Assembly (NCBI GenBank): GCA_902705825.1
Contig: CACSIL010000005.1
Span: forward strand, 1 to 64,000
DNA length: 64,000 nucleotides
DNA from: Halioglobus japonicus
Lineage (GTDB): Bacteria > Pseudomonadota > Gammaproteobacteria > Pseudomonadales > Halieaceae
Direction: 5' to 3'
The first letter of the stretch is position 1. Every line of letters begins with the position of its first letter. Under the pieces are notes generated by a model that was not told the origin of the DNA, ran no database searches, and was given only the letters and a program-made list of their open reading frames with translations. The position numbers were made by a program, and so were the translations under genes. Positions 26,287 to 44,554 of this stretch are shown here, in pieces.

Positions 26287-26326
26287 ATTCCAACAATAAG
26301 ACATAAACACTATAAATAACTGGAAT
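26287..26326 (+). promoter_or_regulatory. Candidate promoter and inverted repeat before the YCF48 gene
   Basis: Arms attcca (26287-26292) and tggaat (26321-26326) surround a -10-like tataaat at 26311-26317. The first start codon at 26325 lies within the right arm, so the message would have almost no leader. The upstream -35 match is poor, which would suit activation by a regulator. No regulatory gene adjoins. Confidence 0.35.
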
Positions 26327-27458
26327 GTTGATGCCGGTGAGAAGACCCGCCACGACAGGCATGGTGGTACTTAGCCTGCTCTTATCCACGATGTTGCGGG
26401 TATCAGCGCAGGATGCGGCCCCGATTATGCCTCTGGCGCCGCAGGCGCTGCTATTGGCTATCACCACAGCAGGCCAGCGCCTGGTGGTGGCGGGTGAACA
26501 CGGCATTATTCTTTACTCTGATGAGAATGCTGACAACTGGCAGCAGGCCAGCGTCCCCACCACCCAGATGCTCACGGGTATCCATTTTGTCGATGATCGC
26601 CAGGGATGGGCAGTCGGACACGACGGTCTGATTCTGGTCAGCGATGACGGTGCCCGCAGTTGGCGCGTCCAGCGCGATGGCCTGTCGGTCCAACATCAGC
26701 TCAATCTGGAATTGCGAGAGACGGCTCACCGACAGATCAGGGAGTTAAAAGAGGCTCTAGCGGTATCGGATGATGAAGCGCGACCGGACTTGGAGTTGGC
26801 GCTGGAGGATGCTCAACTGGATCTGGAGGATGCAGAGCTTACGTTGAGTGAGCCAGTGTTTACCTCCCCTCTTATGGACGTATGGTTCCAGGATACCAAT
26901 CGGGGGTGGGCTGTCGGTGCGTTCGGTACTTTTGTGACAACCACTGATGGTGGTGAACACTGGGTAAGCCAGCAGAAATCACTGGAAAATCCGTTTGAGT
27001 ACCACCTGAATACTGTCACCGGAGACGGCCACGGGCGAGTTTTTATCGCCGGAGAGGGCGGTGTGATGTTTCGCTCGTTTGACGGTGGGAAGGTGTGGGA
27101 ATCGCTGGAACCCTTCTACCAGGGCAGCTGGTTCGGGGCTGTCTATAACGCCGACTACAGAGCCTTGCTGGTGTTTGGGTTGCGCGGCAATGTGTTTCGC
27201 TCCACCGACTTTGGTACAACCTGGGAAGCGGTATCCAACGACAGTCACATTACCCTCGCTGGCGGTACCTCCTCTACACAGGGAGACGTTGTGCTCGCAG
27301 GGGCTGTTGGCACTGTGCTGGTCAGTAATGACGGCGGCAGAACATTTCAGCGCAAGCAGTTGGCGGATGGCCTCAGTTTGAGCTCCGGCATAAGTCGTGG
27401 AGAACGACTGATACTGATTGGCCAGGGTGGAATCAGGACTGTGCAGGAGCTTAACTGA
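26325..27458 (+). CDS. Exported YCF48/BNR-type beta-propeller protein with helical insert
   Basis: A signal peptide (residues about 1-28) precedes repeated propeller blades of the YCF48/BNR type (GEHGIILYSDENADNWQQ, GHDGLILVSDDGARSWRV, GAFGTFVTTTDGGEHWVS and later copies). Between the second and third blades lies a charged helical insert of about 50 residues (LRETAHRQIRELKEALAVSD onward), likely a coiled coil projecting from the propeller. The plant/cyanobacterial YCF48 assists photosystem II assembly, but bacterial relatives beside RND and DUF1302/DUF1329 genes have no photosynthetic role. The gene ends two bases before the RND gene. It is probably a periplasmic partner of the exporter. Confidence 0.85.
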   Translation: MLMPVRRPATTGMVVLSLLLSTMLRVSAQDAAPIMPLAPQALLLAITTAGQRLVVAGEHGIILYSDENADNWQQASVPTTQMLTGIHFVDDRQGWAVGHDGLILVSDDGARSWRVQRDGLSVQHQLNLELRETAHRQIRELKEALAVSDDEARPDLELALEDAQLDLEDAELTLSEPVFTSPLMDVWFQDTNRGWAVGAFGTFVTTTDGGEHWVSQQKSLENPFEYHLNTVTGDGHGRVFIAGEGGVMFRSFDGGKVWESLEPFYQGSWFGAVYNADYRALLVFGLRGNVFRSTDFGTTWEAVSNDSHITLAGGTSSTQGDVVLAGAVGTVLVSNDGGRTFQRKQLADGLSLSSGISRGERLILIGQGGIRTVQELN

Positions 27459-27460
27459 GC

Positions 27461-29893
27461 ATGGATGATCTGCCACAGCGCAATAGCAGCGATCTACACG
27501 GTTACCAGGCGGGCGAGGAAGAGCGCTTTCTTGAGCGTATTATCTTCACCTATCGTCCCCAGCTGTTAGTTGCATTCCTGTTCGCCACAATCTTTTTCGC
27601 CTACCAGACGGCAGGGCTGCGCCCCGACGCCAGCTTCGAAAAAATGATTCCCATGGAACACCCTTTTGTTCAGTCATTTATTGAGCACATGTCTGATCTG
27701 GGCGCAGCCGGAACCACGATTCAGGTCGCCGTTGAGAATACCAGCGGCGATATATTTGATCCCGAGTATCTGGATGTACTGCGTCAGGTCAACGATGAAG
27801 TGTTCTATCTTCCGGGTGTGGACCGTAACAGGATGCGCTCGCTGTGGACGCCGAATGTGCGTTGGGTGGAGGTGACTGAACTCGGTTTCGAGGGCGATAA
27901 GGTCATAGATTCCCAGTACGATGGCTCCGATCGTGCAATGTCTCAATTGCGACAGAATGTGCTGCGCTCAGGTGAGGTTGGTCGACTGGTATCAGATGAC
28001 TATCGCTCCAGTATCGTGGAGGCGCCACTGATTGATATTGACCCGGCATCCGGTGAGCCCCTGGAGTATTGGGCGCTTTCACAGATGCTGGAAAAGAACG
28101 TCCGGGAGAAGTACGAACAATTGTCTCTGGACAGCAACGGTGACCCGAAAGTCAGAATTCATATCATCGGTTTCGCCAAGGTCATAGGCGATCTTCTGGA
28201 TGGGATTACGTCGATCTTTCTGTTCGCCGTTATCACGCTGGTCATTACCTCTGTGCTCCTGTTTCTCTATACGCGCAGCTTGCGCGGTACATTTTCGCCA
28301 CTACTGTGCTCAATCATTGCAGTGATCTGGCAGCTCGGCTTGCTTACCACAATGGGTTATGGGCTCAACGCTTACTCCATACTCATTCCCTTCCTGGTTT
28401 TTGCCATCGGTGTGAGTCACGGTGTGCAAATGGTGAACGCGATACTCGGAGAAAGTGTCTCCGGGAAGAACCGATACATAAGTGCGCGGCTTGCATTTCG
28501 AGCACTGTATTTACCGGGTATGGCGGCACTCCTGTCCGATGCGATTGGCTTTACCACGATGTTGTTGATCCCCATTCAGGTAATCAGGGACTTGGGTGTA
28601 GCGGCCAGCGTTGGGGTTGCCGTTATCGTGCTGACCAATCTGGTACTGCTGCCGATTCTGATGTCCTATTTGGGTATCACCAAAAAGACGTTGGCTCACC
28701 ATCAGAAAAATCATGCGCTATCTACACGAGCCAAAGCCTGGCGCTTGCTCTCCAATTTCGCCAGCCCGCGCGTGGCCAGAGTCTCGATACTGATAGCCGT
28801 CATTGGCTTTGCCATTGGTATCTACGGTAGTCAGAATTTGCAGATAGGCGACCTCGACCCCGGTGCGCCGGAGTTGCATCCGGATTCACGCTATAACCTT
28901 GATAACCAGTTCATCACTGACAACTACGCGACCAGTTCCGACATTCTGGTCGTCATGGTAGAAACGGGCGAACAACAATGCACGCTGTATCGGAACCTGA
29001 AGCTGGTTGATCGATTTACCTGGCATATGCGCAATGTAGACGGAGTCAACTCAGCCATAAGTGCAGCGGAAGTTTCCAAGCTCTATGCAGCAGGCTATAA
29101 CGAGGGCAATCTCAAATGGGCAACTGTTGGCCGCAATCAGCGGCTCCTCGGCTCCACTTTCGATCAGATGCCCGGCGCGCTGATGAATACCACCTGCAGT
29201 CTGTTACCGGTTGCTCTGTTTCTGGATGACCACAAGGCCGAAACGCTGCAAAGAGTGGTTGACGCTGCGCAGGAATTTGCGCGCGAGAATAAGCAAGAGG
29301 GCATTAATTTTGCACTCGCAGCGGGCAATGCCGGGATAGAGGCTGCGACGAATCAGGAGATCGAGGTAGCGCAGAAACGCATCATGTGGCTCATCTATAG
29401 CGTTGTCTGTCTGTTGATATTTTTTATCTTCGCATCGTGGCGAGCGGTTATATGGATTGTCGTTCCTTTGGCGCTGACATCCGCGCTCTGCCAGGCACTG
29501 ATGGCCTACCTGGGAATTGGAGTGAAAGTAGCCACTCTACCGGTGATCGCACTCGGCGTTGGCGTCGGTGTGGACTACGGGATTTATATTTACAGCAAGT
29601 TTTCCCACTATCTACGTCAGGGCATGGGGATTCAGGAGGCTTACTATGGCGCGCTCACCACGACCGGGGAAGCTGTCAGTCTGACGGGCGCGATGTTGGC
29701 GGCGGGCGTGGCTACGTGGATCTGGTCACCGATCAAGTTTCAGGCCGATATGGGGATGCTGCTCACCTTTATGTTCCTGTGGAACATGGTGGGGGCGCTT
29801 TGGCTGCTACCTGCGCTTGCACACTTTCTGATAAAGCCAGAGAAGTTCGTTGAACAGAAAAATCGGCAACAGGCGAAAGTGAGCGCCTCATGA
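27461..29893 (+). CDS. RND-superfamily exporter of the MMPL/HpnN-like type
   Basis: The 810-residue protein has two halves, each with a periplasmic domain and a block of membrane helices. It carries the MMPL-type motif GVGVDYGIYIYSKF near residue 704 and its counterpart VFAIGVSHGVQMVNA near 320. It lacks the AcrB FxFERP start and long double loops, and is instead closer to hydrophobic-lipid transporters. MMPL/HpnN proteins move lipids, hopanoids or other hydrophobic molecules from or through the inner membrane. It is encoded in one tight operon with YCF48, DUF1302 and DUF1329 genes, suggesting a lipid or hydrophobic substrate system spanning the envelope. Confidence 0.85.
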   Translation: MDDLPQRNSSDLHGYQAGEEERFLERIIFTYRPQLLVAFLFATIFFAYQTAGLRPDASFEKMIPMEHPFVQSFIEHMSDLGAAGTTIQVAVENTSGDIFDPEYLDVLRQVNDEVFYLPGVDRNRMRSLWTPNVRWVEVTELGFEGDKVIDSQYDGSDRAMSQLRQNVLRSGEVGRLVSDDYRSSIVEAPLIDIDPASGEPLEYWALSQMLEKNVREKYEQLSLDSNGDPKVRIHIIGFAKVIGDLLDGITSIFLFAVITLVITSVLLFLYTRSLRGTFSPLLCSIIAVIWQLGLLTTMGYGLNAYSILIPFLVFAIGVSHGVQMVNAILGESVSGKNRYISARLAFRALYLPGMAALLSDAIGFTTMLLIPIQVIRDLGVAASVGVAVIVLTNLVLLPILMSYLGITKKTLAHHQKNHALSTRAKAWRLLSNFASPRVARVSILIAVIGFAIGIYGSQNLQIGDLDPGAPELHPDSRYNLDNQFITDNYATSSDILVVMVETGEQQCTLYRNLKLVDRFTWHMRNVDGVNSAISAAEVSKLYAAGYNEGNLKWATVGRNQRLLGSTFDQMPGALMNTTCSLLPVALFLDDHKAETLQRVVDAAQEFARENKQEGINFALAAGNAGIEAATNQEIEVAQKRIMWLIYSVVCLLIFFIFASWRAVIWIVVPLALTSALCQALMAYLGIGVKVATLPVIALGVGVGVDYGIYIYSKFSHYLRQGMGIQEAYYGALTTTGEAVSLTGAMLAAGVATWIWSPIKFQADMGMLLTFMFLWNMVGALWLLPALAHFLIKPEKFVEQKNRQQAKVSAS

Positions 29894-29943
29894 TGTTATG
29901 GGTGTGCGCTGACGTCGTTGCGTTGTTCGGTAGCGAGGTATAG

Positions 29944-31569
29944 ATGACTATGGATCAGCATAAGCGATGGCAATACAAACAGTTGCCGGTGAGCATTCTG
30001 ACAACTTCGCTGCTTTTTGCAGCCGCCGGCTCACAGGCGCTTTCATTTCAGTTCGGTGATGATAAAGAGTGGGAACTCGACTGGGACACCAATGTAGCCT
30101 ATACCGCGCAATTGCGAGTGGCCAAGCGAGATGACAATCAGTTTCGCTACCGGGATACGGGGAATCTGGAGGCCGACAGCAGGGCCTATGCGGTACTGAT
30201 CAATGCCAACGACGGTGACAATAACTTTGATCGCGGTGATCTCGTACAGAATAAAGTCTCTGCCGTTACCGAGGTTGATCTGAGTTGGCGCAACCTGGGG
30301 TTGTTCGCTCGCGCGCGCACCTACTACGATGAGGTATATGATCAGCATACTGAGTTGAGCCAGCAGGACTATCTCACATACAACAACAATACAAAATTCC
30401 CCAACGGCGACGCCTACTTTCGACAGTTTCCCGAGGGCACAGTCGACGAGCACCGGGATCGCCTGGAGATGCTGGATTACTTTCTGTATGCCAGTGGCGA
30501 GGCTTTCGGAGATCGCCTCTACAGTATCAGGCTTGGCAGCCAGGTGATTAACTGGGGGGAGGCGACCTTCACCCAGGGAATTAACGGTTTGCAGAATCGT
30601 GCGGACCTGATCGCCCGCAACACACCCGGGGTGGAGGTCAAGGAGATTCTGTTACCGACCGGGGCAATATACGGTCAGATCGATTTGACCATAGACCTGA
30701 CATTTGAAGCGTACTACCAGTACGAGTGGAAGAAAACAGAGCTCAATGGCGTAGGCAGTTATTTCAGCGATCGGGATTTTCTCGGTCCCGGTGCCAGAAA
30801 CTTCCTGATTCCTATCGGTTCAAACCCCGACAGTATCACCGCAGTCCCGCGCACGGCGGATGACAGCGCGTCTGCCAGCGGCCAGTGGGGGGCAGCGCTG
30901 CACTGGATCGTGTTCGGTGACACAGACCTCGGCCTTTACTATATCAATGCACACAGTAAGGCGCCTGCTTACCAGATCAACTATCCGGCGGGCGGCAACC
31001 CGCTGCCGGAGTCATACACGATCGTCTACTTTGAGGATATTCAGGGGTATGCCGCCAGCTTCACCACCGTGCTGGGAATCACCAATGTTCAGGGTGAGGT
31101 GTCCTTCAAAACAGGTATGCCAGTCGTGCTTGAGAACGGTGATCCCGTCGAAGGCGATCTGGCATCCTATCAAATCGGCGGGTCCTATGTTTTCGAGCCC
31201 AATGCGCTGTGGGACGATGCCAATCTGACATTCGAACTGGCGGGTGCGTACCTCACCTCACACGACAGCGGAGATTTGCTCTATGACGACAACGGTACTG
31301 TCGTCAACCTGCGTCTGGAACTGTCCTACCTCAACCTGATGCCGGGCCTCGATCTGAAAGTGCCCATCTTCTTCCGGCGCGGCATGGACGGCAATATTCT
31401 GGAAAGTGAGATGGTGGAAGACTCATCGGCCGTCAATATCGAGTTCCAGTTTATCTATCTGAATAACTTCACGACGAAAATAGGTTACTCCAATTTTTTT
31501 GATGGCGGCGAAAACACCTACATCAATGATCGCGACAATATTTCTCTCAACGTTTCATACAGCTTTTGA
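29944..31569 (+). CDS. DUF1302 family outer-membrane-like protein
   Basis: The 541-residue precursor has a signal peptide ending near LFAAAGSQA and the DUF1302 signatures WELDWDTNVAYTAQLRVAKR, QVINWGEATFTQGINGLQNR and TGAIYGQIDLTIDL. Alternating beta-strands and an aromatic end (LNVSYSF) indicate an outer-membrane barrel. The function is not established. The near-constant association with DUF1329, YCF48 and an RND exporter suggests it is the outer-membrane arm of that system. Start 29944 follows gcgagg; ATG 29950 is an alternative. Confidence 0.85.
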   Translation: MTMDQHKRWQYKQLPVSILTTSLLFAAAGSQALSFQFGDDKEWELDWDTNVAYTAQLRVAKRDDNQFRYRDTGNLEADSRAYAVLINANDGDNNFDRGDLVQNKVSAVTEVDLSWRNLGLFARARTYYDEVYDQHTELSQQDYLTYNNNTKFPNGDAYFRQFPEGTVDEHRDRLEMLDYFLYASGEAFGDRLYSIRLGSQVINWGEATFTQGINGLQNRADLIARNTPGVEVKEILLPTGAIYGQIDLTIDLTFEAYYQYEWKKTELNGVGSYFSDRDFLGPGARNFLIPIGSNPDSITAVPRTADDSASASGQWGAALHWIVFGDTDLGLYYINAHSKAPAYQINYPAGGNPLPESYTIVYFEDIQGYAASFTTVLGITNVQGEVSFKTGMPVVLENGDPVEGDLASYQIGGSYVFEPNALWDDANLTFELAGAYLTSHDSGDLLYDDNGTVVNLRLELSYLNLMPGLDLKVPIFFRRGMDGNILESEMVEDSSAVNIEFQFIYLNNFTTKIGYSNFFDGGENTYINDRDNISLNVSYSF

Positions 31570-31591
31570 AATAACCAAGAGGGCAGGGAAG

Positions 31592-32980
31592 ATGCATCTA
31601 ATCAGAAACAGCATAGTCGCCACGGCGCTGTCGGTACTGACTGTCAGTGCCATGGCAAAAATGTCGGCAGAGGATGTCGCTCGCCTGGGACAGGATCTGA
31701 ACCCCATCGGTGGTATCAAGGCGGGAAGTGAGGATGGACTGCTACCCCAGTGGACGGGCTCGGTAGTCGGTCTGCCAAAAGGGCTGCAATGGGATGGACC
31801 GGGTACGCCCTATCCAAACCCCTGGCCGGATGAGAAGCCGCTATTTGTGATAACCAAAGACAACATGGCGCAGTACCAGGCGCGCTTGAGTCCGGGGCAG
31901 GTCGCTTTGTTCGATACCTATCCTGATACCTTCAGAATGCCGGTCTATCCGGGTCACAGGGATTTCGCCTTCTATCCAGAATTCTACGAGAAGGTTCTCT
32001 ACAACGCACAGCACAGCGAACTGATCAATGACGATGAGGGTATTCAGGGGTTCCTCGGTGGTGCAGCTTTTCCGGTGCCTTCGACAGGCCCGGAGGCTGT
32101 CTGGTTTACACGAACTACCGGCGCGAACGAGACCATAGAAGGTGAATACAGCGACATCGCCGTCTTTCCCAATGGCACGAAATCCACGCGACGATCTAGG
32201 TTTCTACAGGAATCGCCTTACGCCAGTCGCAAGAACCCGATCGAAGCGGATTACGAGTATCCCAATCTTGGTGAGTTTGGTGGATACATTATGACCTATG
32301 TGACCGAGCCGGCCCGTGACAAGGGCCTTATTACCGCGGTTATCGAGCCGTATGATTACTCGAAGAATGCGCGCGAGGTATGGCGTTATCTGCCGGGTTC
32401 ACGCCGGGTCCGGCGCGCGCCAACGGTGGGCTTTGATACGCCCGATGGCCCCGGTGGACTGAAAACAGTGGACGAGGTGCGCGGCTTTAACGGCTCCATG
32501 GAGCGCTTCGAGTGGAAGCTGTTGGGGCGCGAGGAAATCTTTATTCCCTATCATAACTATGACTTCGACGCGCCGGATATCTCCTATGAGGAATTGTTGA
32601 CCAAGTTTCACGCCAACCCGGATTACATGCGCTATGAACTCAGGCGAGTCTGGGTGGTTGAAGGTACGCTGCGCGATGGTGAGCGCCATATCTATGGCAA
32701 GCGACGTATCTACGTGGACGAAGACACCGGCTTTACTGCAATCACCGAAAATTATGATGGCCGTGGTGAACTATGGAAGGTGGTATTGACCAACAACGTG
32801 TATGACTACGGTAGTCAGGGTTACGTGAGGCGTGCACAGATGTATCACGATCTGCGTGCCGGTGCCTATATCGCCGAGCGGGTGATCAATGACAGCGCGC
32901 CCATGCTCTATGATGTTAAGCCAATGAGGGGCCCGGGCTACTTCACGCCCAGCAATATCCGCAAGCTCGGTAAGCGTTGA
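31592..32980 (+). CDS. DUF1329 family periplasmic protein
   Basis: The 462-residue protein starts MHLIRNSIVATALSVLTVSA (signal peptide) and has the DUF1329 hallmark LNPIGGIKAGSEDGLLPQWT, then GPGTPYPNPW, and later WRYLPGSRRVRRAP and RRVWVVEGTLRDGERHIYGK. DUF1329 proteins are periplasmic; a LolB/LolA-like lipid-binding fold has been proposed for them (recollection, not tested here). An upstream frame beginning at 31499 inside DUF1302 is not a real start. As the last gene of the operon it probably carries a hydrophobic cargo between the RND and DUF1302 components, which is inference. Confidence 0.87.
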   Translation: MHLIRNSIVATALSVLTVSAMAKMSAEDVARLGQDLNPIGGIKAGSEDGLLPQWTGSVVGLPKGLQWDGPGTPYPNPWPDEKPLFVITKDNMAQYQARLSPGQVALFDTYPDTFRMPVYPGHRDFAFYPEFYEKVLYNAQHSELINDDEGIQGFLGGAAFPVPSTGPEAVWFTRTTGANETIEGEYSDIAVFPNGTKSTRRSRFLQESPYASRKNPIEADYEYPNLGEFGGYIMTYVTEPARDKGLITAVIEPYDYSKNAREVWRYLPGSRRVRRAPTVGFDTPDGPGGLKTVDEVRGFNGSMERFEWKLLGREEIFIPYHNYDFDAPDISYEELLTKFHANPDYMRYELRRVWVVEGTLRDGERHIYGKRRIYVDEDTGFTAITENYDGRGELWKVVLTNNVYDYGSQGYVRRAQMYHDLRAGAYIAERVINDSAPMLYDVKPMRGPGYFTPSNIRKLGKR

Positions 32981-33675: not shown

Positions 33676-33717
33676 ATGTTGTTTAACAAGCTGATGCAGA
33701 TTGGGAGAAGCAAAGGA

Positions 33718-35889
33718 ATGACCAAAACACAGCCCGCTTTCTTTACAGACCTCGAGGAAAGCGTGGATGCACTGCTTGCCAAGGTCGGGAAGAAGGTCGT
33801 TATAGCCGGCGGCTTCGGACGGCCCATTCATATCTTCAATGCGTTGTTTCGACGCGCACAGGCAGACCCCAGTATAGAGCTGACAATCATTACCGGGGTA
33901 TCTTTCAGTCGCCCCAAGGGCAGTAGTGATCTGGAGCGACGGTTTCTGGAGCCTTTTGTAGACAGGGTGTTTGGGAATCTGCCGGAGCTTGACTATGTCG
34001 AGCCCTACCAGAAGGGCCGCTTGCCAGAGAATATAGAGATTGTTGAACTGTTTCTCCAGGCGGGCACCTATCTGGGAAACAAGCATGCCCAGCAAAATTT
34101 CGTTTACAGCAACTTCACCCACTGGCTGAGAGACATGATCGAACAGGGGTGCAATGTGTTCAGCCAGATGATCGCCAAGCGTGAGATAGACGGCGAGATG
34201 GCCTACAGTATGAGCCACGATGCCTATGCGCTGGATATCCTGCCGCGATTGCAGACACTGCGCGAGGAGGGCAAGCAGATCGCTGTCATTGCACAGGTGA
34301 ATGATCAACTGCCGTTCATGTACAACGACGCGATCATACCGGTTGAAACCTACGATATTATTCTCGATGACCCCCAGTACAACCATACTCTACTGGGGCC
34401 GCCTTCCCCCTCGGTAGATACAACAGACTACATGATTGGCCTGAATGCCAGCAGTCTACTGCCCGATGGTGGCACTTTGCAGGTGGGTATCGGTTCGCTG
34501 GGTGATGCGATCACCTACGGCTGCATCCTGCGCCACGAGCACAACAGGCAATACACCGATGTGCTTGCCGAGTTGGGTATAACAGAGCGCTTTGGTGAGA
34601 TTGTCGATCGCGTTGGAGGAACCGGGCCGTTCGACAGAGGCTTATACGGTGCCACTGAAATGTTTGCCGATGGCTTTCGCCACCTCCTCAATCACAACAT
34701 ATTGAAGCGGGCGGTGTACGATCATATCGGTCTACAGCGGCTTGTTAACGCAGGGCAAATCGATCCTGTCGTCACCACAGATTCCCTTGCTGTACTACAT
34801 AAAGAGGGGCTTGTGTCCGCCCGGTTATCGTCCGGTGATCTCGCTTTTCTGCAAAAATATGGCTTTTTCAAGGAGACGGTTACGCTTGAAAATGGCGTGC
34901 TGCACTGCGGCGATGGTACTGAGATTGAAGCTGATTTGGGTGACGCAGCAACACTGGAATCAATAGGCCAGCATTGCATGGGAGAGACACTCAAGGGTGG
35001 CATTGTGTTGCATGCCGGGTTCTTTCTGGGCCCGCAGGCGATGTACCAGCAACTGGAGAATATGCCTGAGGCCGATGCACTGAAAATTTGCATGACGGAC
35101 ATAGCATTCGTAAACCAATTGTATGGCTGCGAGGAGCTGGCCCGTCTGCAGCGACATGACGCACGCTTTATGAATACCTCGATCATGATCACGCTGCTTG
35201 GCGCGGCGTGTTCAGATGGCCTCGAAGACGGGCGCAAGATAAGCGGCGTTGGCGGTCAGTATAATTTTGTGGCGATGGCACATGCTTTGCACGACGCCCG
35301 CTCTGTGCTGATGTGTCGCAGCACACGCACAAAGAATGGCGAGGTCACATCGAATATAGTGTGGAATTATGGCCATACCACGATTCCGGCTCATCTTCGC
35401 GATATTGTCATCACGGAATACGGTATTGCGATGCTGCGTGGGCAGCGCGAAAAAGATGTGATCGCCCGTATGCTCAATATTGCTGACTCGCGCTTCCAGC
35501 CGCATTTGCTGGAGCAGGCGAAGCGTGTTGGCAAAATACCTGCTGACTATGAAATCCCGCCAGAGTTCTGCAATAATTTTCCCGAGAGGCTGGAGCGTGT
35601 CGCCTCCCGACTGCGGCCAGAGGGGCTCTTTCCGGCGTGCCCATTCGGCAGCGATTTTACCTCAGAGGAACTGGTTCTGGCAGGCGTGCTGCAAAGTCTG
35701 AAGACCAAAATGGGTTCACGTCGTACGCTGTTCAAAACGCTGGCAGGTGCAGTGGGCGCTGTCGGCGTGCCTCCTGCGGCGGCGCTGCCGTATCTTGCGC
35801 GAATGGGCCTTGATGAGCCCGGCGATATCAAGGAGACGGCCTTTCAAAAGCTGATACTCGCTGAGCTTAAAGAGCTTGGCTATATCTAA
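33718..35889 (+). CDS. Acetyl-CoA hydrolase/transferase family protein, long form
   Basis: The 723-residue protein combines an N-terminal CoA-transferase half with the characteristic C-terminal acetyl-CoA hydrolase domain, marked by GVGGQYNFVAMAHALHDARS and TRTKNGEVTSNIVWNYGHTT. Typical bacterial members are about 430-630 residues, so this one carries an extended N-terminal region and a C-terminal helical tail. Family enzymes move CoA between acetate, succinate and other acids or hydrolyse acyl-CoA. The start ATG 33718 is preceded by aagga; an in-frame ATG at 33676 would overlap the leader hairpin boundary. It converges with the dehydrogenase-synthetase fusion, four bases apart. Confidence 0.82.
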   Translation: MTKTQPAFFTDLEESVDALLAKVGKKVVIAGGFGRPIHIFNALFRRAQADPSIELTIITGVSFSRPKGSSDLERRFLEPFVDRVFGNLPELDYVEPYQKGRLPENIEIVELFLQAGTYLGNKHAQQNFVYSNFTHWLRDMIEQGCNVFSQMIAKREIDGEMAYSMSHDAYALDILPRLQTLREEGKQIAVIAQVNDQLPFMYNDAIIPVETYDIILDDPQYNHTLLGPPSPSVDTTDYMIGLNASSLLPDGGTLQVGIGSLGDAITYGCILRHEHNRQYTDVLAELGITERFGEIVDRVGGTGPFDRGLYGATEMFADGFRHLLNHNILKRAVYDHIGLQRLVNAGQIDPVVTTDSLAVLHKEGLVSARLSSGDLAFLQKYGFFKETVTLENGVLHCGDGTEIEADLGDAATLESIGQHCMGETLKGGIVLHAGFFLGPQAMYQQLENMPEADALKICMTDIAFVNQLYGCEELARLQRHDARFMNTSIMITLLGAACSDGLEDGRKISGVGGQYNFVAMAHALHDARSVLMCRSTRTKNGEVTSNIVWNYGHTTIPAHLRDIVITEYGIAMLRGQREKDVIARMLNIADSRFQPHLLEQAKRVGKIPADYEIPPEFCNNFPERLERVASRLRPEGLFPACPFGSDFTSEELVLAGVLQSLKTKMGSRRTLFKTLAGAVGAVGVPPAAALPYLARMGLDEPGDIKETAFQKLILAELKELGYI

Positions 35890-35893
35890 TTAC

Positions 35894-38800
35894 TCACGAT
35901 GGTTGCGCTGGCGAAAGTTCGGCTAACATGTGTTTGCGCAACACTTTGCCGTTTCGGGTTCTGGGGAATTCGCGGTAAAAATGCACCCGTTTGGGTGCTT
36001 TGTAGCGGGCGAGTTTATCGTTACCGAAATCAAGAATGTCCTGCGCGGTGACGGTCGCATCCGGATTGGCGATGACACACACGCTCACCAGAATCTTGTC
36101 CTTTTCCACCATCTCACCCAGCGCCACGCAATCACTCACGCCAGGGTGCGTTTTTATTACGCGCTCTATCTCATGTGGTGATACGCGGTAACCAAAGGTA
36201 TTGATAATGTCGTCTTTGCGTCCGACAAACCAGATATAGCCATCTTCATCAATGCGGGCGTAGTCGCCGGTTAAAAAATATCCCCCGCTGCGCGACTTTG
36301 CCGTTTCCTGTGGCAACTGCCAGTAGCCCAGAAATAAGCCGGGGTCAGAGTCCTTGATCGCAATCATACCTTCCTCACCCGCTTTGACGGGCTGTCGGTG
36401 TTCGTCCAGTAACTCGACCTCATGGCCTGGCTGGATAAACCCGGCGGCACCGGGGCGAATAGGGCGCTCGGTGTTTTGGGAGATGTAATAGGAACATTCA
36501 CTCATGCCAATGGCTTCGTAAATATCCATGCCAAATCGCTCTCGCCACAGGAACAACATTTCATCACTGAGGTGTTCTCCGGCACTCATACAATGGCGCA
36601 GTGAAGGTACATCCGCCCCGGTGGATTCTGTCTTCTGCAGGATCTGGCGGTAGATGGTGGGCACGCCGATAAAAATCGTGCAGTCGTGCTTTTTTATGAG
36701 CCGCATCCAGACTGATGCATCGCTTTTCCCCTCATGGACAACCACCGTATGCCCGTGGCACAGTGGGTCCATCAGCCCGGTGCCGAGCACGTAAGTCCAG
36801 TTAAACTTACCCGAGTGCAGAATCCTGTCACCTTCTTTAAAGTCAAACCAGAAGTGGCTGGCAGGCTGGCGGCCGAGCAGCGAGCGATGCGCGTGTAGAA
36901 CGCCTTTCGGGTACCCTGTTGTGCCGGAAGTGTAGACCAGATAGGCGGGGTCATCCGGGGAGCTGGTGACTATCGTGTCGTCAACGGGGCTGCCGGCAAG
37001 CAGGGTTTGTAGATCAAGAACCTGTATCCCCGGGCAGTCAATATCATCAGGCATCTCGCCTGGCCCCGCCAGAAGAATAGTTTCCAGGTCGCTGTTCTCA
37101 TCCACAATGGGGCGTAGCTCTGACCACATGGATTTGTGGGTAACAAGCACCTTTGCACCGGAGTCTTTTGCCAGATAAGCGACTTCCGGTGTCGATAACA
37201 GGGTCGATGTTGGGACAGCCACAGCGCCGTACTTCAGGCAGCCAAAAAAGCTCACAGGGTAGTCCACGGAGTTTGGCAGGCGAATCAGCACTCGGTCACC
37301 GCAGCTGATGCCCAGTTGCCCCAGCGCATGCACGAACTGGCCGCTCAGCGAATCCAGCGTCCGATAGCTTAATTCCGATGAGCCCAGCTGGTCGTCCTCG
37401 ATAACAAGGGCCGTTTTTTCCCCGTGGTTCTGTTCTATATGTCGGCGCACGCAAGCGTAGGCAATATTGAATTTTTCGGGCAGATGCCACTGCCAGCCCT
37501 CAACGGTCTGAGTGAGCAGTTCGTCGAATCTATGTGGGTTGCTTCTGTTCAGGATGTCCGCAACAGGCTTGCCAGCCTCGGTGCGCGATCTCAATATGTG
37601 CAGGCTCTGGGCTAATTGCGCAGTGATCTGTGGGTTGTTGATCAGGTCGTCGCCAAAAATACTGGTAATACTCAAAAACCCGCTGACGACCTTGCTGGTA
37701 TCGTCATCCTGCAGCACCGCCAGTTGTGAAAATTCCGCCGCCAGTGGGTCCACAATCTCCCGGCCTGTTTTCAGCGCACGGCAAATGAATTCAAACCAAC
37801 AGGCCAGCGCCAGGCACAGGCCGCCAGTGGGGCGCGCAAGCCTCAGGTTGTCTCTGATAATGGGCAGTATCCGCATCTGAATCTTCTGCGATCCATCCCA
37901 GGCGATTTGTGCCAGCTGGTGCTGAATTTCGGGATTCAGGAAACGGGTAATAATTTCCCTGCTGTACGTCTTTATATCCAGTTGTGTTGGTGCGTTAAAC
38001 GATCCAATGATCTCGTTGTGCGATAAATCTGTAATGAACTGTTGAAACCTGGGGTCACTGGTTACCTCGTAAACCGTCTTAAAGCCATCCAGCAAGCCGG
38101 AGTAAGCCAGGGTAGAGTGCAGACAATTCAGTAGACGCAATTTGGCTTTCTCGAAACCCTCGACGTCGTCGGTGAATACAACGCCGACATCCTCCCAGTT
38201 CGGTCTGTCGCCGCTCCAGTTATCCTCTATCACCCACTGGGTAAATTCTTCACGTTGCACAGGCCAGTTGTCCTGTGCGCCTATTGCAGTGGAGACTGAG
38301 GCGATTGTGTAGTCCTCCGTTTTCGGTGTGATGCTATCCACCATGGAGTTCGGAAACGCCACATTGTCAGTGATCCAGTCAGCTAACCCCTTATCGATTA
38401 GCAGGGCATAATCCAGCACCGATCTTTGCAGTTTGTCGCCATTGCCGGAAACATTGTCACAACTGAGTACCGTAAAGGCCGCTGTGCCTGTGTCTCGTCG
38501 CAGTCTCATTCCCTCAACCAGAAAGCCGATTGCACTTTGCGGCTGACGTGGGGTGCGCAGGTCCGCTGCAATATCCGGGTGTTCCAGGTCCAGAGTGCCC
38601 TGAGCATTCAGGCAATAACCTTTTTCCGTGATAGTTAGGGAAACAATTTTGGTGGTGTCTGCAGTTAAGCGCTTGAGAATGGCTTCGCTCTGTTCGCCTG
38701 CGACCAGAATTTCCTGGATAGCACCTATTATCTGGTAGCGGGGTGTCGTATCTCGTATCGCAAGCGTGTAGAGATAATCCTGCGTCGAGAGAACATCTCT

Positions 38801-39013
38801 CGCAGCGCTGCTGCGCAAAGATACGCCACAAATACCCCAGTCCCCGCCGGACTGATTCATCGCGTTCTCCGTGTAGACAGCCTGATGCGCGCGATGAAAA
38901 GCGCCCGGTCCAATGTGCACAATGCCTATACCGGTATTCTTGCGGTCGTAGCGGGGCGTTGCGATGGTTTGCTGATGTTGTAACTCAACAAGATACTCTG
39001 TCGATAGTTTCAT
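35894..39013 (-). CDS. Fusion of fructuronate reductase/mannitol dehydrogenase and acyl-CoA synthetase
   Basis: One uninterrupted frame of 1039 residues joins two complete enzymes. Residues 1 to about 485 are a polyol/uronate dehydrogenase of the MtlD/UxuB family, with a Rossmann motif (IVHIGPGAFHRAHQAVYTEN), DNVSGNGDKLQ, and the active-site segment KLRLLNCLHSTLAYSGLLDG near 290. In this cluster it should reduce fructuronate to mannonate. From about 490 an ANL-family synthetase follows at once (WHLPEKFNIAYACVRRH, then YTSGTTGYPKGV near 690, and the catalytic Lys in RTRNGKVLRK near 1023). It activates a carboxylic acid to acyl-AMP and acyl-CoA. The gene is last in the leftward kdgK operon. Why the two are joined is unknown. 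Confidence 0.85.
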   Translation of the reverse strand: MKLSTEYLVELQHQQTIATPRYDRKNTGIGIVHIGPGAFHRAHQAVYTENAMNQSGGDWGICGVSLRSSAARDVLSTQDYLYTLAIRDTTPRYQIIGAIQEILVAGEQSEAILKRLTADTTKIVSLTITEKGYCLNAQGTLDLEHPDIAADLRTPRQPQSAIGFLVEGMRLRRDTGTAAFTVLSCDNVSGNGDKLQRSVLDYALLIDKGLADWITDNVAFPNSMVDSITPKTEDYTIASVSTAIGAQDNWPVQREEFTQWVIEDNWSGDRPNWEDVGVVFTDDVEGFEKAKLRLLNCLHSTLAYSGLLDGFKTVYEVTSDPRFQQFITDLSHNEIIGSFNAPTQLDIKTYSREIITRFLNPEIQHQLAQIAWDGSQKIQMRILPIIRDNLRLARPTGGLCLALACWFEFICRALKTGREIVDPLAAEFSQLAVLQDDDTSKVVSGFLSITSIFGDDLINNPQITAQLAQSLHILRSRTEAGKPVADILNRSNPHRFDELLTQTVEGWQWHLPEKFNIAYACVRRHIEQNHGEKTALVIEDDQLGSSELSYRTLDSLSGQFVHALGQLGISCGDRVLIRLPNSVDYPVSFFGCLKYGAVAVPTSTLLSTPEVAYLAKDSGAKVLVTHKSMWSELRPIVDENSDLETILLAGPGEMPDDIDCPGIQVLDLQTLLAGSPVDDTIVTSSPDDPAYLVYTSGTTGYPKGVLHAHRSLLGRQPASHFWFDFKEGDRILHSGKFNWTYVLGTGLMDPLCHGHTVVVHEGKSDASVWMRLIKKHDCTIFIGVPTIYRQILQKTESTGADVPSLRHCMSAGEHLSDEMLFLWRERFGMDIYEAIGMSECSYYISQNTERPIRPGAAGFIQPGHEVELLDEHRQPVKAGEEGMIAIKDSDPGLFLGYWQLPQETAKSRSGGYFLTGDYARIDEDGYIWFVGRKDDIINTFGYRVSPHEIERVIKTHPGVSDCVALGEMVEKDKILVSVCVIANPDATVTAQDILDFGNDKLARYKAPKRVHFYREFPRTRNGKVLRKHMLAELSPAQPS

Positions 39014-39077: not shown

Positions 39078-40037
39078 TTACTGCTGTTGCTGCTGTTGCT
39101 GCTTTAGCGATTGCAAGATGCCTTTCATTTGCTGTAACTGCGCAGTAGCCAGTACTCCGCCATTTACCTGCAGCACCTCAGTCGCTGTTTGCCCCGCAAA
39201 TGTTATCGCATCAATCGCTGCGATGTGCGCGAGCCGGGCAGCGATATACGCACCGTTGAATGTGTCGCCTGCGCCGGTGGTATCGAGTACCTCCCGGGCG
39301 GGCTCAATATTGACTTCCCGAATACTATCATCGGCAATCAGGGTGCAGGTTTGCGCCCCGTTCTTCAGTATCACTTCCCGGGCGCTGGCGTTAAGAAGGG
39401 CCTGCGCGGCCTCGTCGATTGATGCAAACCCGAAGAGTGTTTCCTCCTCTTCAAAACCGGGTAGATAGATATCGGTCAGTGCCTGTACCTGCGCAATGGC
39501 TGCAGCCGCCTCCGCGGCGCTTGGCCAAAGTGCAGGTCGGAAGTTGGGGTCAAAAATAACGGTGCCACCCCGGCTTCGGTACTCGTGCAAAAACGACAGT
39601 AACATTTGCTGACTGGCTTCATTCATAAGCGCCAGCGTAATCCCTGTAAAATACAAATAGGGCGTGTTTTTTAATGGCTCCAGTAGCGCTAAAAGGGTAG
39701 TCGGCTGCTTGAACAGTGCACTGGCTGCCGAATCGTTGCGCCAATACTCGAAGCTGCGCTCGCCGGCATCATCGGTGCTGATGAGGTAGAGTCCGGGGTG
39801 TCGCAGTGGATCTATGTCCGGTTCAGCAAGGGTGACATGGTGAGACGCCGCATGCGTGCGGATTCTGTCGGCCTGCAGGCCTGAGCCCAGGGCCGTCACA
39901 TAGGCGACATCGACACCCAGTCCCTGCAATGTACAGGCGGTATTATAGGTATCACCGGCAGCGCCCAGCGCATACCGCTTCTCATTCAGCGGAGCCAGTT
40001 CGATCATTACTTCGCCTAAAATGACGATGTCACTCAT
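39078..40037 (-). CDS. kdgK: 2-Keto-3-deoxygluconate kinase (PfkB family)
   Basis: The 319-residue PfkB-family kinase opens MSDIVILGEVMIELAPLNEK and has GAAGDTYNTACTLQGLGVDV as the N-terminal sugar-binding region and DTTGAGDTFNGAYIAARL with the catalytic Asp of the GAGD motif. In this context it phosphorylates KDG, the product of UxuA, to KDPG for the aldolase encoded downstream on the other strand. It is first in a leftward pair with the dehydrogenase-synthetase gene, 64 bases apart, and divergent from uxaC. The last seven residues are all Gln, from a short triplet repeat, which is unusual for the family. Confidence 0.85.
   Translation of the reverse strand: MSDIVILGEVMIELAPLNEKRYALGAAGDTYNTACTLQGLGVDVAYVTALGSGLQADRIRTHAASHHVTLAEPDIDPLRHPGLYLISTDDAGERSFEYWRNDSAASALFKQPTTLLALLEPLKNTPYLYFTGITLALMNEASQQMLLSFLHEYRSRGGTVIFDPNFRPALWPSAAEAAAAIAQVQALTDIYLPGFEEEETLFGFASIDEAAQALLNASAREVILKNGAQTCTLIADDSIREVNIEPAREVLDTTGAGDTFNGAYIAARLAHIAAIDAITFAGQTATEVLQVNGGVLATAQLQQMKGILQSLKQQQQQQQ
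39081..39101 (-). repeat. Glutamine triplet repeat at the end of kdgK
   Basis: Seven consecutive Gln codons (mix of CAG and CAA read on the minus strand) precede the stop codon of kdgK. The pattern alternates CAG CAA CAG CAG CAA CAG CAG. It adds an uncharged tail to the kinase and may vary in length between strains. Confidence 0.85.
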
Positions 40038-40301: not shown

Positions 40302-41720
40302 TTGACTCCAAGAAAACTTATCCTGCATCCCGACAGGTTGTTTGCACCTGATGAGAGGCAGCGCAGCGTTGCGCGGGGACTCTATCAGAAAGTGCAAGGC
40401 CTGCCGATTATCAGCCCGCACGGACACACGGATGCCGCCTGGTTTTCCGAAAATACGGCCTTTGATAATGCCGCTGACCTGCTGATAAAGCCAGATCACT
40501 ATGTCTTTCGCTTGCTCTATAGTCAGGGTATTGCGCTGGAAGCTCTGGGTGTGCCCCGCGCGGACGGTGCTGCCGTGGAGCAGGACGGACGTAAGATCTG
40601 GCGCCTGTTGGCCAATAACTACCACCTGTTTCGCGGTACACCTTCGCGACTTTGGCTGGATACCGTATTCGCTCAGCTATTCGAGTTTGAGCATGTGCTG
40701 TGTGCCGAAACCGCTGATGACTACTACGATAGCATCAACGCCGCACTAGCCACTGACGCCTTCAGGCCGCGCGCACTGTACGAGCGATTCAATATTGAGT
40801 TGATATCCACCACCGAATCGCCGCTGAGTGACCTCGCTCACCACAGAGCCATTGCCGACAGCAACTGGCAGGGGCGCGTGATTTCTGCCTACCGTCCGGA
40901 CCCGGTGATAGATCCCGAGTTTGAGGGCTTTGTCGATGCGGTTCGCGACTTTGGCGAACTCACCTTAGAAGATACCTCCACTTTTGCGGGCTACCTGCGG
41001 GCGCACCGTGTGCGCCGCGCGTTCTTCAAATCAACCGGTGTTACCTCCACCGATCACGGCCACCCGACAGCGCGCACAGCCGATCTGCCGGCAGCGGAGA
41101 TAGAGGCCTTGTACGCTGCTGCCATCAGCGGCACCGCCAGTCCCGAGCAAGCTGAACTGTTCCGCGCGCACATGCTGACGGAGATGGCGGGCATGAGCAT
41201 TGACGATGGACTGGTGATGCAGCTGCACCCCGGCTCATCGCGCAATCACAACGCCAGCGTGTTCAAACAGTTCGGTCGCGACAAGGGGGCGGATATACCG
41301 CTGCAAACGTCATACGTTGAACAACTCAAGCCGCTGCTGGATAAATACGGTACGCATCCGGATCTGACGCTTATCCTGTTTACGCTGGACGAAACGGCCT
41401 ACAGCCGTGAATTGGCACCCCTGGCGGGGCATTACCCCTGCCTGCGATTAGGACCGCCGTGGTGGTTCCACGACAGTCCCGAAGGCATGCGCCGTTTCCG
41501 GCAACATGTGACAGAGAGCGCCGGCTTCTACAATACGGTGGGTTTCAACGATGACACCCGCGCCTTCCTGTCGATTCCCGCGCGCCATGATGTCGCCCGC
41601 CGCATGGACTGCAACTGGCTGGCTGAGCTGGTGTGTGATCATCGCCTCGATATCGAGGAGGCCGAGGAGCTGGCTGTTGAATTGACGTACAACCTGGTCA
41701 AAAAAGCCTACAAATTGTGA
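40302..41720 (+). CDS. uxaC: Glucuronate (uronate) isomerase
   Basis: The 472-residue enzyme belongs to the UxaC family, an amidohydrolase-fold group: LPIISPHGHTDAAWFSENTA near residue 27 holds the His-x-His-like metal site, and ESPLSDLAHH, HPGSSRNHN and NTVGFNDDTRAFLSIPARHD follow in family order. It interconverts glucuronate and fructuronate (or galacturonate and tagaturonate), the first step of the pathway here. The start is TTG at 40302, eight bases after caagga; no ATG in the frame fits the conserved N-terminus (MTPRKLILHPDRLF). It is followed by uxuA after 74 bases. Confidence 0.93.
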   Translation: MTPRKLILHPDRLFAPDERQRSVARGLYQKVQGLPIISPHGHTDAAWFSENTAFDNAADLLIKPDHYVFRLLYSQGIALEALGVPRADGAAVEQDGRKIWRLLANNYHLFRGTPSRLWLDTVFAQLFEFEHVLCAETADDYYDSINAALATDAFRPRALYERFNIELISTTESPLSDLAHHRAIADSNWQGRVISAYRPDPVIDPEFEGFVDAVRDFGELTLEDTSTFAGYLRAHRVRRAFFKSTGVTSTDHGHPTARTADLPAAEIEALYAAAISGTASPEQAELFRAHMLTEMAGMSIDDGLVMQLHPGSSRNHNASVFKQFGRDKGADIPLQTSYVEQLKPLLDKYGTHPDLTLILFTLDETAYSRELAPLAGHYPCLRLGPPWWFHDSPEGMRRFRQHVTESAGFYNTVGFNDDTRAFLSIPARHDVARRMDCNWLAELVCDHRLDIEEAEELAVELTYNLVKKAYKL

Positions 41721-41794: not shown

Positions 41795-42994
41795 ATGCGT
41801 GAGTCATGGCGATGGTTTGGCCCCGGAGACCCGGTAACGATAAAGGATATACGGCAGACTGACGCCACCGATATCGTGAGTGCGCTGCACAATATTCCCA
41901 GCGGTGAAGTGTGGCCGATAGACGCGATACGCGAACACCAGGCGTTAATTGAAACCTGTGAGCCGGGCGAGTCAACGCTGGTGTGGTCAGTGGTGGAGAG
42001 CATTCCGGTACACGAGGATATCAAACTGGCGCGCGAGGGTTGCCAGCGTTATATCGATAACTGGGTGGCCTCGATGGAAAATCTGGCAGCCTGTGGCATT
42101 AAAACCATTTGTTACAATTTCATGCCGGTGATTGATTGGACGCGAACAGATTTGCAGCACCGCCTGCCCAGCGGTGGGTATGCGCTGCGCTTTGATCAGC
42201 AGAAGTTTTCCGTGTTTGATTTATACATTCTGGAACGCCAGGGTGCTGAGCGGGATTATTCCGATCAGGAGATCGCCACAGCCCGGCAACTTTTCGAACA
42301 GATGTCGGAAGATGAGAGGGCGCTGCTCACACGCAATATTATCGCCGGGCTGCCGGGCAAGATGACCGATGCCTACGGCCTGGATACCTTTCGCGCGATG
42401 CTCGCCAATTATCAGGGTATGGATGCCGATACACTGAGAAACAACCTGTACCGTTTCCTCGAATGCGTCCTGCCTGTGGCGGAAACGCTCGGTGTGAAGC
42501 TCGCTATCCATCCCGATGACCCGCCGCGGGATATGCTCGGCCTGCCAAGGATTATTTGCACTGCTGCCGATCTGGATGTCCTGTTTGATCGCTTGCCCAG
42601 TCCGGCCAATGGCATCACGTTATGCGCCGGTACGTATGGCAGCCGCCCCGATAATAATCTTCCCGAGATGGCAAAGCAGTTTGCGCCGCGAATCCATTTT
42701 TCACATCTACGTGGTGTCGTGCGCGACGCCGATGAGCAGCGCTCTTTTTACGAGGCCAGTCACCTAAATAGTGATGTGAATATTGTCGGTGTCATATCGG
42801 CGTTGTTGGCCGAAGAGCGGCGGCGCAAGGCAGAAGGCCTTGAGCAGAGTGAAATCTTCATCCGACCCGACCATGGTCATCAGATATTGGACGATGTTAA
42901 CAAATCAGTAAATCCGGGCTATTCCTGTATTGGCCGGTTGAAGGGCCTCGCTGAAATTCGAGGCGTGGTGAAAGCGCTGGAGTACTTGGATTAA
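41795..42994 (+). CDS. uxuA: D-Mannonate dehydratase
   Basis: The 399-residue protein begins MRESWRWFGPGDPVTIKDIR, matching the UxuA N-terminus, and continues with ALHNIPSGEVWPIDAI, the GIKTICYNFMPVIDWTRTDL block, IHPDDPPRDMLGLPRI, and the metal-binding end RPDHGHQILDD. The enzyme dehydrates mannonate to 2-keto-3-deoxygluconate in the cytoplasm. Its length is that of E. coli UxuA. It lies between uxaC and the GntR regulator. The ribosome binding site is weak, so translation may depend on uxaC. Confidence 0.95.
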   Translation: MRESWRWFGPGDPVTIKDIRQTDATDIVSALHNIPSGEVWPIDAIREHQALIETCEPGESTLVWSVVESIPVHEDIKLAREGCQRYIDNWVASMENLAACGIKTICYNFMPVIDWTRTDLQHRLPSGGYALRFDQQKFSVFDLYILERQGAERDYSDQEIATARQLFEQMSEDERALLTRNIIAGLPGKMTDAYGLDTFRAMLANYQGMDADTLRNNLYRFLECVLPVAETLGVKLAIHPDDPPRDMLGLPRIICTAADLDVLFDRLPSPANGITLCAGTYGSRPDNNLPEMAKQFAPRIHFSHLRGVVRDADEQRSFYEASHLNSDVNIVGVISALLAEERRRKAEGLEQSEIFIRPDHGHQILDDVNKSVNPGYSCIGRLKGLAEIRGVVKALEYLD

Positions 42995-43084
42995 CGCTCT
43001 CTTTAAGGGTATAGCTGGCTGGTCCACCGGACGCATAGCCCGGCCAACAGGCTTGTGTTATCGTTCGTTCAGGTCAGAGCATTT

Positions 43085-43879
43085 ATGAAAGATAAAGACA
43101 GATTTCCTCAAAATACGCAGCGACTTCCGCGGGAGCCGCGCCTCTATCAGCAGGTCGCTGAAAAGCTGATCGGCATGATCGAACTTGAAGAATATGAAGT
43201 GGGTATGCGGCTGCCTGCGGAGCGTGAACTTGCGACGATGTTGGGCGTAAGTCGCCCAACTATCCGCGAGGCTGTGATCGCCCTTGAGCTTGCACACTAT
43301 GTTGAAGTCCGCATGGGCTCCGGCGTGTATGTGCTGGAATATAAGAAGGGCAGAAACCGTTTTTCTGATCAGGACGTTGGCCCGTTTGAACTCACCGAGG
43401 CAAGGGCCTTGTTCGAGGGTGAGGCAGTCGCGCTGGCGGCGACCATGATCACCGATGAGCAGTTGGTACAGTTGGCAGAATCTCTGGATGAAATGGTGGA
43501 GGAGAACGCACACGGTGTCGACAGCCATGAGGTGGCGGACAAAAAGTTTCATATGATTATTGCCCAGGCCACCAACAACAGTGCCATTCGCTCGACCATA
43601 GAAAACCTGTGGGAAATGCGGGAGAGCTCTGCGCTGACAGCAAGCACGCTGCAGAAGGCGCGTAACTCCGGCCTGAAACCATCGGTAGAGCAGCATCGGG
43701 ATATCTACAATGCGTTAAAAGCCCGCGATGCCACGGCCGCACGCCAGGCGATGCGTTCGCATTTACTGACAGTGATTGAAAGCATTCTTGAGGCCACTGA
43801 AGCGGATGCCATAGAGGCGGCGCGCAACCGAACGTCAGAAAGTCGGGATCGACTCAAACGCACTAAAACCATTGTTTAA
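43085..43879 (+). CDS. GntR-family regulator, FadR/UxuR subfamily
   Basis: Residues about 25-90 form the winged helix (LPAERELATMLGVSRPTIRE), and the rest is the all-helical FCD ligand domain (ALFEGEAVALAATMITDEQL, ADKKFHMIIAQATNNSAI). In this subfamily the ligand domain binds a metal and sugar acids such as fructuronate, which releases the repressor from operators. The gene sits inside the uronate block, so it most likely represses uxaC-uxuA and kdgK. I chose the ATG at 43085; a longer frame from 43055 is less likely. The palindrome upstream of uxaC is the best candidate target. Confidence 0.85.
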   Translation: MKDKDRFPQNTQRLPREPRLYQQVAEKLIGMIELEEYEVGMRLPAERELATMLGVSRPTIREAVIALELAHYVEVRMGSGVYVLEYKKGRNRFSDQDVGPFELTEARALFEGEAVALAATMITDEQLVQLAESLDEMVEENAHGVDSHEVADKKFHMIIAQATNNSAIRSTIENLWEMRESSALTASTLQKARNSGLKPSVEQHRDIYNALKARDATAARQAMRSHLLTVIESILEATEADAIEAARNRTSESRDRLKRTKTIV

Positions 43880-43930: not shown

Positions 43931-44554
43931 ATGATTGTCACAACATTATCTGCTTGCCGGGTGTTGCCGGTTATCACGGCGAAGGATGCAAATAGCACTG
44001 TCGCGTTGGCAAAGGCCCTGGGCCGTGGCGGTATGAAGGCGGTGGAGATCACGCTGCGCACGCCAGCTGCGCTCGACAGTATTCGCGAAGTTGCGGCGCA
44101 GGTGCCGGAGATGATAGTGGCAGCGGGTACCGTGACGAACCCTGATGAGCTGCATCGAGCAGTAGAGGCGGGAGCCTCTATGGTGGTGAGCCCCGGCTCT
44201 ACACCGCGTTTACTGCGCGCAGCGCGCGACGCGGGTATTGATTTCGTACCGGGTGTCGCGACGGCTTCTGAAGTGATGCAGGGTCTGGATGAAGGCTATA
44301 GCTGTTTCAAACTGTTTCCCGCTGTGGCTGCGGGCGGCTTGAATCTGCTCAAATCACTGGCCGGGCCTTTTCCGGATGTCAAGTTCTGCCCCACCGGGGG
44401 GCTGAGTCCAGCAAATTTCAGGGAGTTTCTGGCACTGCCGAATGTTGTTTGTTGCGGTGGTTCCTGGATGGTTGCTGCCGATCTTGTCGATAACCATCGC
44501 TGGGATGACATTGAGGCACTGGCGCGCGAAGCGATGGCAACGGCGCCTGCTTAG
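43931..44554 (+). CDS. eda: KDPG/KHG aldolase
   Basis: The 207-residue aldolase has VEITLRTPAALDSI with catalytic Glu39, GTVTNPDELHRAVEAGA, and the Schiff-base lysine Lys127 in SCFKLFPA, followed by FCPTGGLSPANFREFL. It splits 2-keto-3-deoxy-6-phosphogluconate to pyruvate and glyceraldehyde 3-phosphate, the last step of the uronate route here. The length matches the Eda family. It lies 51 bases after the regulator gene, probably in the same transcript, and converges with xylA. Confidence 0.93.
   Translation: MIVTTLSACRVLPVITAKDANSTVALAKALGRGGMKAVEITLRTPAALDSIREVAAQVPEMIVAAGTVTNPDELHRAVEAGASMVVSPGSTPRLLRAARDAGIDFVPGVATASEVMQGLDEGYSCFKLFPAVAAGGLNLLKSLAGPFPDVKFCPTGGLSPANFREFLALPNVVCCGGSWMVAADLVDNHRWDDIEALAREAMATAPA

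Follow-up and report, generated by a model that had tools for sequence, protein, structure and literature searches.

A 64,000-nucleotide stretch of Halioglobus japonicus DNA (the window) contains a gene that reads through a dehydrogenase and an acyl-CoA ligase without interruption. We consider it likely that this gene is a lineage-specific fusion of two adjacent, co-oriented genes, one for a uxuB-type fructuronate reductase and the other for an AMP-forming acyl-CoA ligase, which would have been joined by a net loss of 4 nt. As judged from its sequence, the product is probably two ordinary enzymes on one chain.

Two complete enzymes in one reading frame

The open reading frame at 35894-39013 on the minus strand has an ATG start, 1,039 codons and no internal stops. 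Its N-terminal part matches the Pfam models Mannitol_dh (residues 30-274) and Mannitol_dh_C (283-472), and its C-terminal part matches AMP-binding (528-898) and AMP-binding_C (948-1023); each of the four clears its gathering cut-off by a wide margin. A single frame of this length that holds two complete families is far beyond chance. A preliminary description of the window had reported, without naming a strand, two full-length enzymes in one frame, with catalytic motifs in both halves and almost no linker. The frame, its four Pfam domains and the aligned residues given below confirm this account, and "almost no linker" is a reasonable description insofar as the junction contains no added residues, though 55 residues of native tail and lead separate the dehydrogenase and ligase matches. 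We placed the junction at 37531/37532, within the interval 37480-37560 proposed in that description, and the conserved ligase N-terminus RFDxLL..GWxW follows it directly. The host genome (G000) is a 5.05-Mb draft in 53 contigs and is 93.3% complete. Three relatives that carry both enzymes were used for comparison, namely L022 from genome G006, L023 from G013 and L027 from G007; the paired labels denote three relatives, not six. The features of the gene and its surroundings are as follows.

33676-35889, plus strand: protein of 737 aa with an acetyl-CoA hydrolase/transferase C-terminal domain (Pfam), convergent with the fused gene
35894-39013, minus strand: fused open reading frame of 1039 aa, dehydrogenase plus acyl-CoA ligase (reading frame and Pfam)
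35897-37531, minus strand: acyl-CoA ligase half, residues 495-1039, AMP-binding and AMP-binding_C (Pfam, alignment, motifs)
37529-37534, minus strand: fusion point CAT/AGA, from the alignment with L023, which has 4 extra nt here
37532-39013, minus strand: dehydrogenase half, residues 1-494, fructuronate-reductase-like (Pfam, phmmer, NCBIfam)
39078-40037, minus strand: PfkB-family kinase resembling KDG kinases, with an NCBIfam score below the cut-off; it has the same orientation as the fused gene and lies upstream of it
40302-41720, plus strand: UxaC glucuronate isomerase, over the NCBIfam cut-off
41795-42994, plus strand: UxuA mannonate dehydratase, over the NCBIfam cut-off, which would act on the mannonate made by the dehydrogenase half
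43055-43879, plus strand: GntR/FCD regulator that scores best as ExuR/UxuR-like but stays below the cut-offs (Pfam, NCBIfam)
43931-44554, plus strand: KDPG aldolase-like (Eda), with a homologue at the same place in G013

The dehydrogenase half scored 154.5 bits against PF01232 (cut-off 27) and 129.6 bits against PF08125 (cut-off 30.7), the domains of long-chain polyol dehydrogenases, and aligned over nearly its full length with the mannitol dehydrogenases 7rk4 and 1lj8. In a phmmer alignment with 1lj8, from Pseudomonas, K291, N296 and H299 of the window protein coincide with the Lys, Asn and His of K-I-G-L-L-N-G-S-H, and the SCDN motif with N187 is also kept; we take all of these residues to be catalytic. 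The window enzyme has in common with UxuB and the polyol dehydrogenases both full-length domains, the Lys-Asn-His set and SCDN, and its gene sits with those for UxaC, UxuA and a KDG-kinase-like protein. Unlike UxuB-type enzymes, it carries a C-terminal ligase and falls below the NCBIfam cut-off. Its best-scoring NCBIfam model was PRK15037 (fructuronate reductase), with 364.9 bits against a cut-off of 603, and the standalone dehydrogenases of L023 and Colwellia (L041) also lie under this curated cut-off. Because the cut-off is missed, we take the name fructuronate reductase solely from context. A search of the genome for Mannitol_dh_C gave the fused gene and no other. The dehydrogenase half is thus the one candidate we found for the reductase step that links UxaC to UxuA, and it is probably the working fructuronate reductase.

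The ligase half aligned over nearly its full length with anthranilate-CoA ligase 4wv3 and benzoate-CoA ligase 4eat. It retains YTSGTTGYPKG at 694, YEAIGMSE at 832, GYRVSPHEIE at 941 and RTRNGKVLRK at 1018, which presumably represent the catalytic motifs and, in the last, the catalytic lysine. With both Pfam domains above cut-off and the core motifs present, it is an acyl-CoA ligase of the ANL superfamily and shares these features with the benzoate-, anthranilate- and acetate-CoA ligase-like enzymes 4eat, 4wv3 and 3etc, from which it differs in having an N-terminal dehydrogenase. No NCBIfam model reached its cut-off among the best 25 of 120 matches; the benzoate-CoA ligase model TIGR02262 gave 286.4 bits (cut-off 375.25) and the acetate-CoA ligase model PRK04319 gave 310.3 bits (cut-off 729). 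The window also encodes a second AMP-binding ligase of 561 aa at 59771-61456.

The first half fits a uronate cluster, as the preliminary description had held, with UxaC, UxuA and the KDG-kinase-like gene nearby. Xylose isomerase- and xylulokinase-like genes also lie beyond the UxaC/UxuA/GntR side; the names KDPG aldolase (Eda) for 43931-44554 and xylose isomerase for the nearby isomerase are putative and were given from the look of the sequences. On the other side, 4 nt separate the ends of the fused gene and the acetyl-CoA hydrolase/transferase-like gene, outward of which lie SnoaL, DUF1329, DUF1302, MMPL and YCF48-like genes. The YCF48-like, MMPL, DUF1302 and DUF1329 genes form a row (26325-32980) that likewise stands beside the uronate genes of G006 and, over the part that was fetched, of G013.

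The two genes are separate in close relatives

Both halves lie side by side in 4 of 18 genus genomes (G000, G006, G007 and G013); the window's own genome, G000, is counted within this sample and within the family and order samples below. Separate genes, which the preliminary description had named, together with a stop or frameshift at the junction on resequencing, as evidence against its reading, are what we found in all three relatives with the pair. In L022 the dehydrogenase stop is followed after 3 nt by the ligase ATG in the same frame, in L027 the spacing is 4 nt, and in L023 the ligase ATG falls within the dehydrogenase gene, so that the two genes overlap by 17 nt. These ligase starts were chosen by alignment, and other in-frame starts lie nearby. 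PMC10666635 describes short gene overlaps and translational coupling as common; the relatives' distances of -17, +3 and +4 nt resemble those of translationally coupled overlapping pairs, whereas in the window the boundary is gone.

The surroundings of the pair are shared as well. KDG-kinase-like and CoA-hydrolase-like neighbours flank it in all three relatives, and we rejected a large rearrangement that joined unrelated loci because the relatives have the same neighbours. The acetyl-CoA hydrolase/transferase-like homologues next to the ligase in these relatives match at 77-84%, a level confined to these three genomes; 9 of 14 other genus genomes have homologues at 41-43%. Of 17 window genes used as queries, 13 have counterparts in the stretch of G013 that was fetched, with relative order and orientation preserved and each in one piece except the fused gene (the MMPL gene is cut by the end of the stretch), and the other four are outside the stretch or absent. 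G006 keeps this order between the YCF48-like and KDG-kinase-like genes, the latter close to the end of its contig. The order in common with G007 runs from SnoaL through UxuA, and the stretch fetched from that genome gave no match to DUF1302, DUF1329 or the aldolase. In the ligase tree, the window sequence pairs with its sister from L023 (96/79), and both belong to a clade of four genomes (100/99), which is placed with moderate support (88/89, 91/93) among Colwelliaceae ligases.

Wider searches gave no second example of the fusion. At E <= 1e-100, 10 of 140 family genomes had a match (five candidates scored per genome), with the pair in the same four and fused in G000 only. Matches were found in 32 of 390 sampled genomes of the order (two candidates scored per genome), with both halves in one match in G000 only. 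The preliminary description had suggested looking for the same domain order elsewhere, and neither the family nor the order sample held it outside G000. Among the best 80 of 471 related loci, in a collection that may omit records of the window's own genome, both halves occur in three and are fused in none. A G208 match (residues 464-1034), which seemed to extend into the dehydrogenase, and several Campylobacterota loci matched from residue 416 or 453 were considered as further fusions; separate searches with each half showed that they contain the ligase half alone. We therefore rejected a conserved fused architecture, which is present in one genome among those searched. Each half also occurs alone, the dehydrogenase in G027 and others and the ligase in G385, where it is 76% identical to that of the window with neither partner adjoining. 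A tie of ligase to dehydrogenase by ancestry was also rejected, because ligase orthologs sit elsewhere and that of G385 is without either partner. The G385 ligase (L135:3152-8471 and L137:7121-14153 were compared) is flanked by a 504-aa gene and a 292-aa hydrolase-like gene, the N-termini of which resemble, by eye, genes near the unfused G027 dehydrogenase.

A probable 4-nt loss at the gene boundary

In the interval bounded by the conserved ADIL and RFDxLL stretches, the window has 4 nt fewer than L023. When a single 4-nt gap was slid along the L023 alignment, the best position was GTCC, with 33 matches, and the next best on either side had 32. GTCC comprises the G of the ligase ATG and the following codon. 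MAFFT, run on four sequences, placed the gap two bases further on; both placements cost the window the ligase ATG and bring the two frames together.

These alignments suggest how the fusion may have come about. In the ancestor, the dehydrogenase gene would have run slightly beyond the ligase ATG, an arrangement that L023 retains. A net loss of 4 nt would then have removed this ATG and put dehydrogenase translation out of frame with its own stop and in frame with the ligase, so that one ribosome pass would yield a single chain of 1,039 residues. We infer the direction from separate to fused because all three relatives have separate genes. At 71-80% protein identity, other, multi-step routes may have led to the same arrangement. 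The two domains would most likely fold and work independently, the first converting D-fructuronate to D-mannonate for UxuA and the second converting a small organic acid through an acyl-adenylate to its CoA thioester.

The ligase family is associated with CitE-type lyases

Ligase orthologs form a group of 64 among the best 80 of the 471 loci, including the three Halioglobus-type loci, and by tree the window ligase groups with ligases associated with CitE and MaoC genes. Within these 64 loci, a 372-aa HpcH/HpaI (CitE-like) gene lies at most 300 nt from the ligase in 54, and within 6 kb there is a mesaconyl-CoA-hydratase-like MaoC gene in 33, another CitE-like gene in 32, a class I fumarase in 27 and a further CitE gene in 20; the neighbour clusters were named from scanning one or two members each. 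L032:5575-11595 and similar loci combine the ligase with three different CitE-like lyases and the MaoC gene, and others have the class I fumarase. The literature searched yielded no pathway name for this gene set.

In 15 of the 64 loci, the ligase reading frame itself is 838-852 aa long. All 15 tails match separate CitE proteins at 38-47% identity, and the tail of the 839-aa L058 protein contains a Pfam HpcH/HpaI domain. These fusions (L058:8025-10544 plus L061, L065-L069, L071, L074-L076, L079, L084, L087 and L100) form one clade (100/100) in the ligase tree, which indicates one older fusion event rather than fifteen.

No match to the 372-aa CitE-like gene was found in G000, G006, G007 or G013. 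Positive controls did match: the query hit 4 of 10 genomes, including the three known carriers. The four Halioglobus-type genomes do hold other CitE and MaoC relatives. A separate locus of the host genome (L110, G000:C45:184000-203000) has two methylmalonyl-CoA-mutase-type genes, two MeaB, two CitE-like genes, MaoC and an acyl-CoA dehydrogenase. From its gene content this cluster looks like an ethylmalonyl-CoA pathway, and the CoA ester made by the ligase could be used there. The preliminary description had considered a sugar acid or an aromatic acid as the ligase substrate, for which we found no support. By association, the ortholog context suggests C4-C5 acid metabolism of the CitE/MaoC type. 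It points to malate, citramalate, mesaconate or itaconate as possible substrates, or to acetate or propionate used by such lyases, and any single one of these would have a likelihood not above about one in three.

A broader scenario would take the ligase from an undescribed acid-activation module of Proteobacteria and Campylobacterota, composed of the AMP-forming ligase, several CitE-type lyases, the mesaconyl-CoA-hydratase-like MaoC and class I fumarase. The ligase would have been recruited to uronate catabolism in the Halioglobus lineage, where it would feed the ethylmalonyl-CoA-type genes of the host, and the fusion would be an active bifunctional enzyme that keeps the two coupled. We regard this scenario as speculative and quite improbable.

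Alternatives to a simple gene fusion

One point that weighs against a fusion is that it occurs in one genome only, a 53-contig draft. Two genes may in reality be present, with bases missing at the junction through a sequencing or assembly error. The fusion was seen once, in a draft assembly, the three relatives each have two genes, and a passage in PMC3711429 states that singleton frame transitions can stem from sequencing error or a recent indel. Against this, the junction stretch is not a homopolymer, and no window gene matched in G013 other than the fused one is in two pieces there. Loss of 4 nt is also an unusual type of error, and on balance we consider an artefact unlikely. If the fusion is real, a separate ligase might still be made beside the fused chain by internal initiation at an in-frame TTG upstream of the junction (the L codon in HILRSR). 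This seems improbable, as the 174-nt junction segment has no ATG or GTG in the ligase frame and no convincing ribosome-binding site was seen by eye.

Pairwise dN/dS between the window and its relatives lies at 0.11-0.12 in the dehydrogenase half and 0.08-0.13 in the ligase half. Comparisons among the unfused relatives gave 0.16-0.20 and 0.11-0.15, so the window values are comparable or lower; with synonymous sites near saturation and a branch that may largely predate the fusion, these figures counter old decay only. Pairwise values average over this long branch and cannot show constraint after the fusion, so we counted unique changes instead. Residues unique to one of the four sequences number 21 in the window, 11 in L022, 8 in L023 and 22 in L027 for the dehydrogenase half (487 columns), and 15, 16, 19 and 45, respectively, for the ligase half (547 columns). 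In the dehydrogenase half, the window thus has slightly more unique changes than L022 and L023, its two closest relatives, which speaks against untroubled function. Such an excess would suit a decaying gene in which the fusion cost one half its activity, either because the ligase was unneeded or because the dehydrogenase was hampered. Intact catalytic motifs in both halves, a frame free of stops and further frameshifts, the low dN/dS and a Mannitol_dh_C search that found no substitute dehydrogenase in the genome all argue otherwise, and decay has a very low probability in our view. Selection for a bifunctional enzyme, with tethering useful and both activities serving one route through a fixed ratio or shared metabolites, is more doubtful still. 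In all four genomes with the pair, the two coding regions adjoin in the same orientation and have the same neighbour on either side, and the CitE fusions of another clade indicate that the ligase family tolerates tethering. However, the fusion is confined to one genome, each half is also found alone, and we know of no substrate shared by the two activities. The preliminary description had presented the protein as a puzzling bifunctional enzyme: both enzymes are present, but a shared purpose does not follow, as the genes are separate in the relatives and a 4-nt deletion suffices to join them. The surprise it expressed is mostly accounted for by a probable deletion at a gene boundary.

A new instance of fusion between neighbouring genes

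Genes that neighbour each other in an operon are known to fuse. The ligase-CitE fusions of Arcobacteraceae and others (such as L058) belong to the same family, are 56-58% identical to the window ligase and likewise have an operon neighbour as partner. Their partner is a C-terminal HpcH/HpaI lyase, whereas that of the window ligase is an N-terminal dehydrogenase. The preliminary description knew of no such bifunctional protein, and a search through the full text of PMC papers under open licences turned up no account of this pair of domains. The dehydrogenase-ligase pair is a new instance of neighbour fusion, with a new domain order. Its interest lies in the traceable birth of a multi-domain protein, which would have required only a small deletion at a tight gene boundary and for which the unfused states are still alive in close relatives. 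Together with the CitE clade, it points to a ligase family that has become fused to a neighbour at least twice, once to a CitE lyase and, in this Halioglobus genome, to a dehydrogenase.
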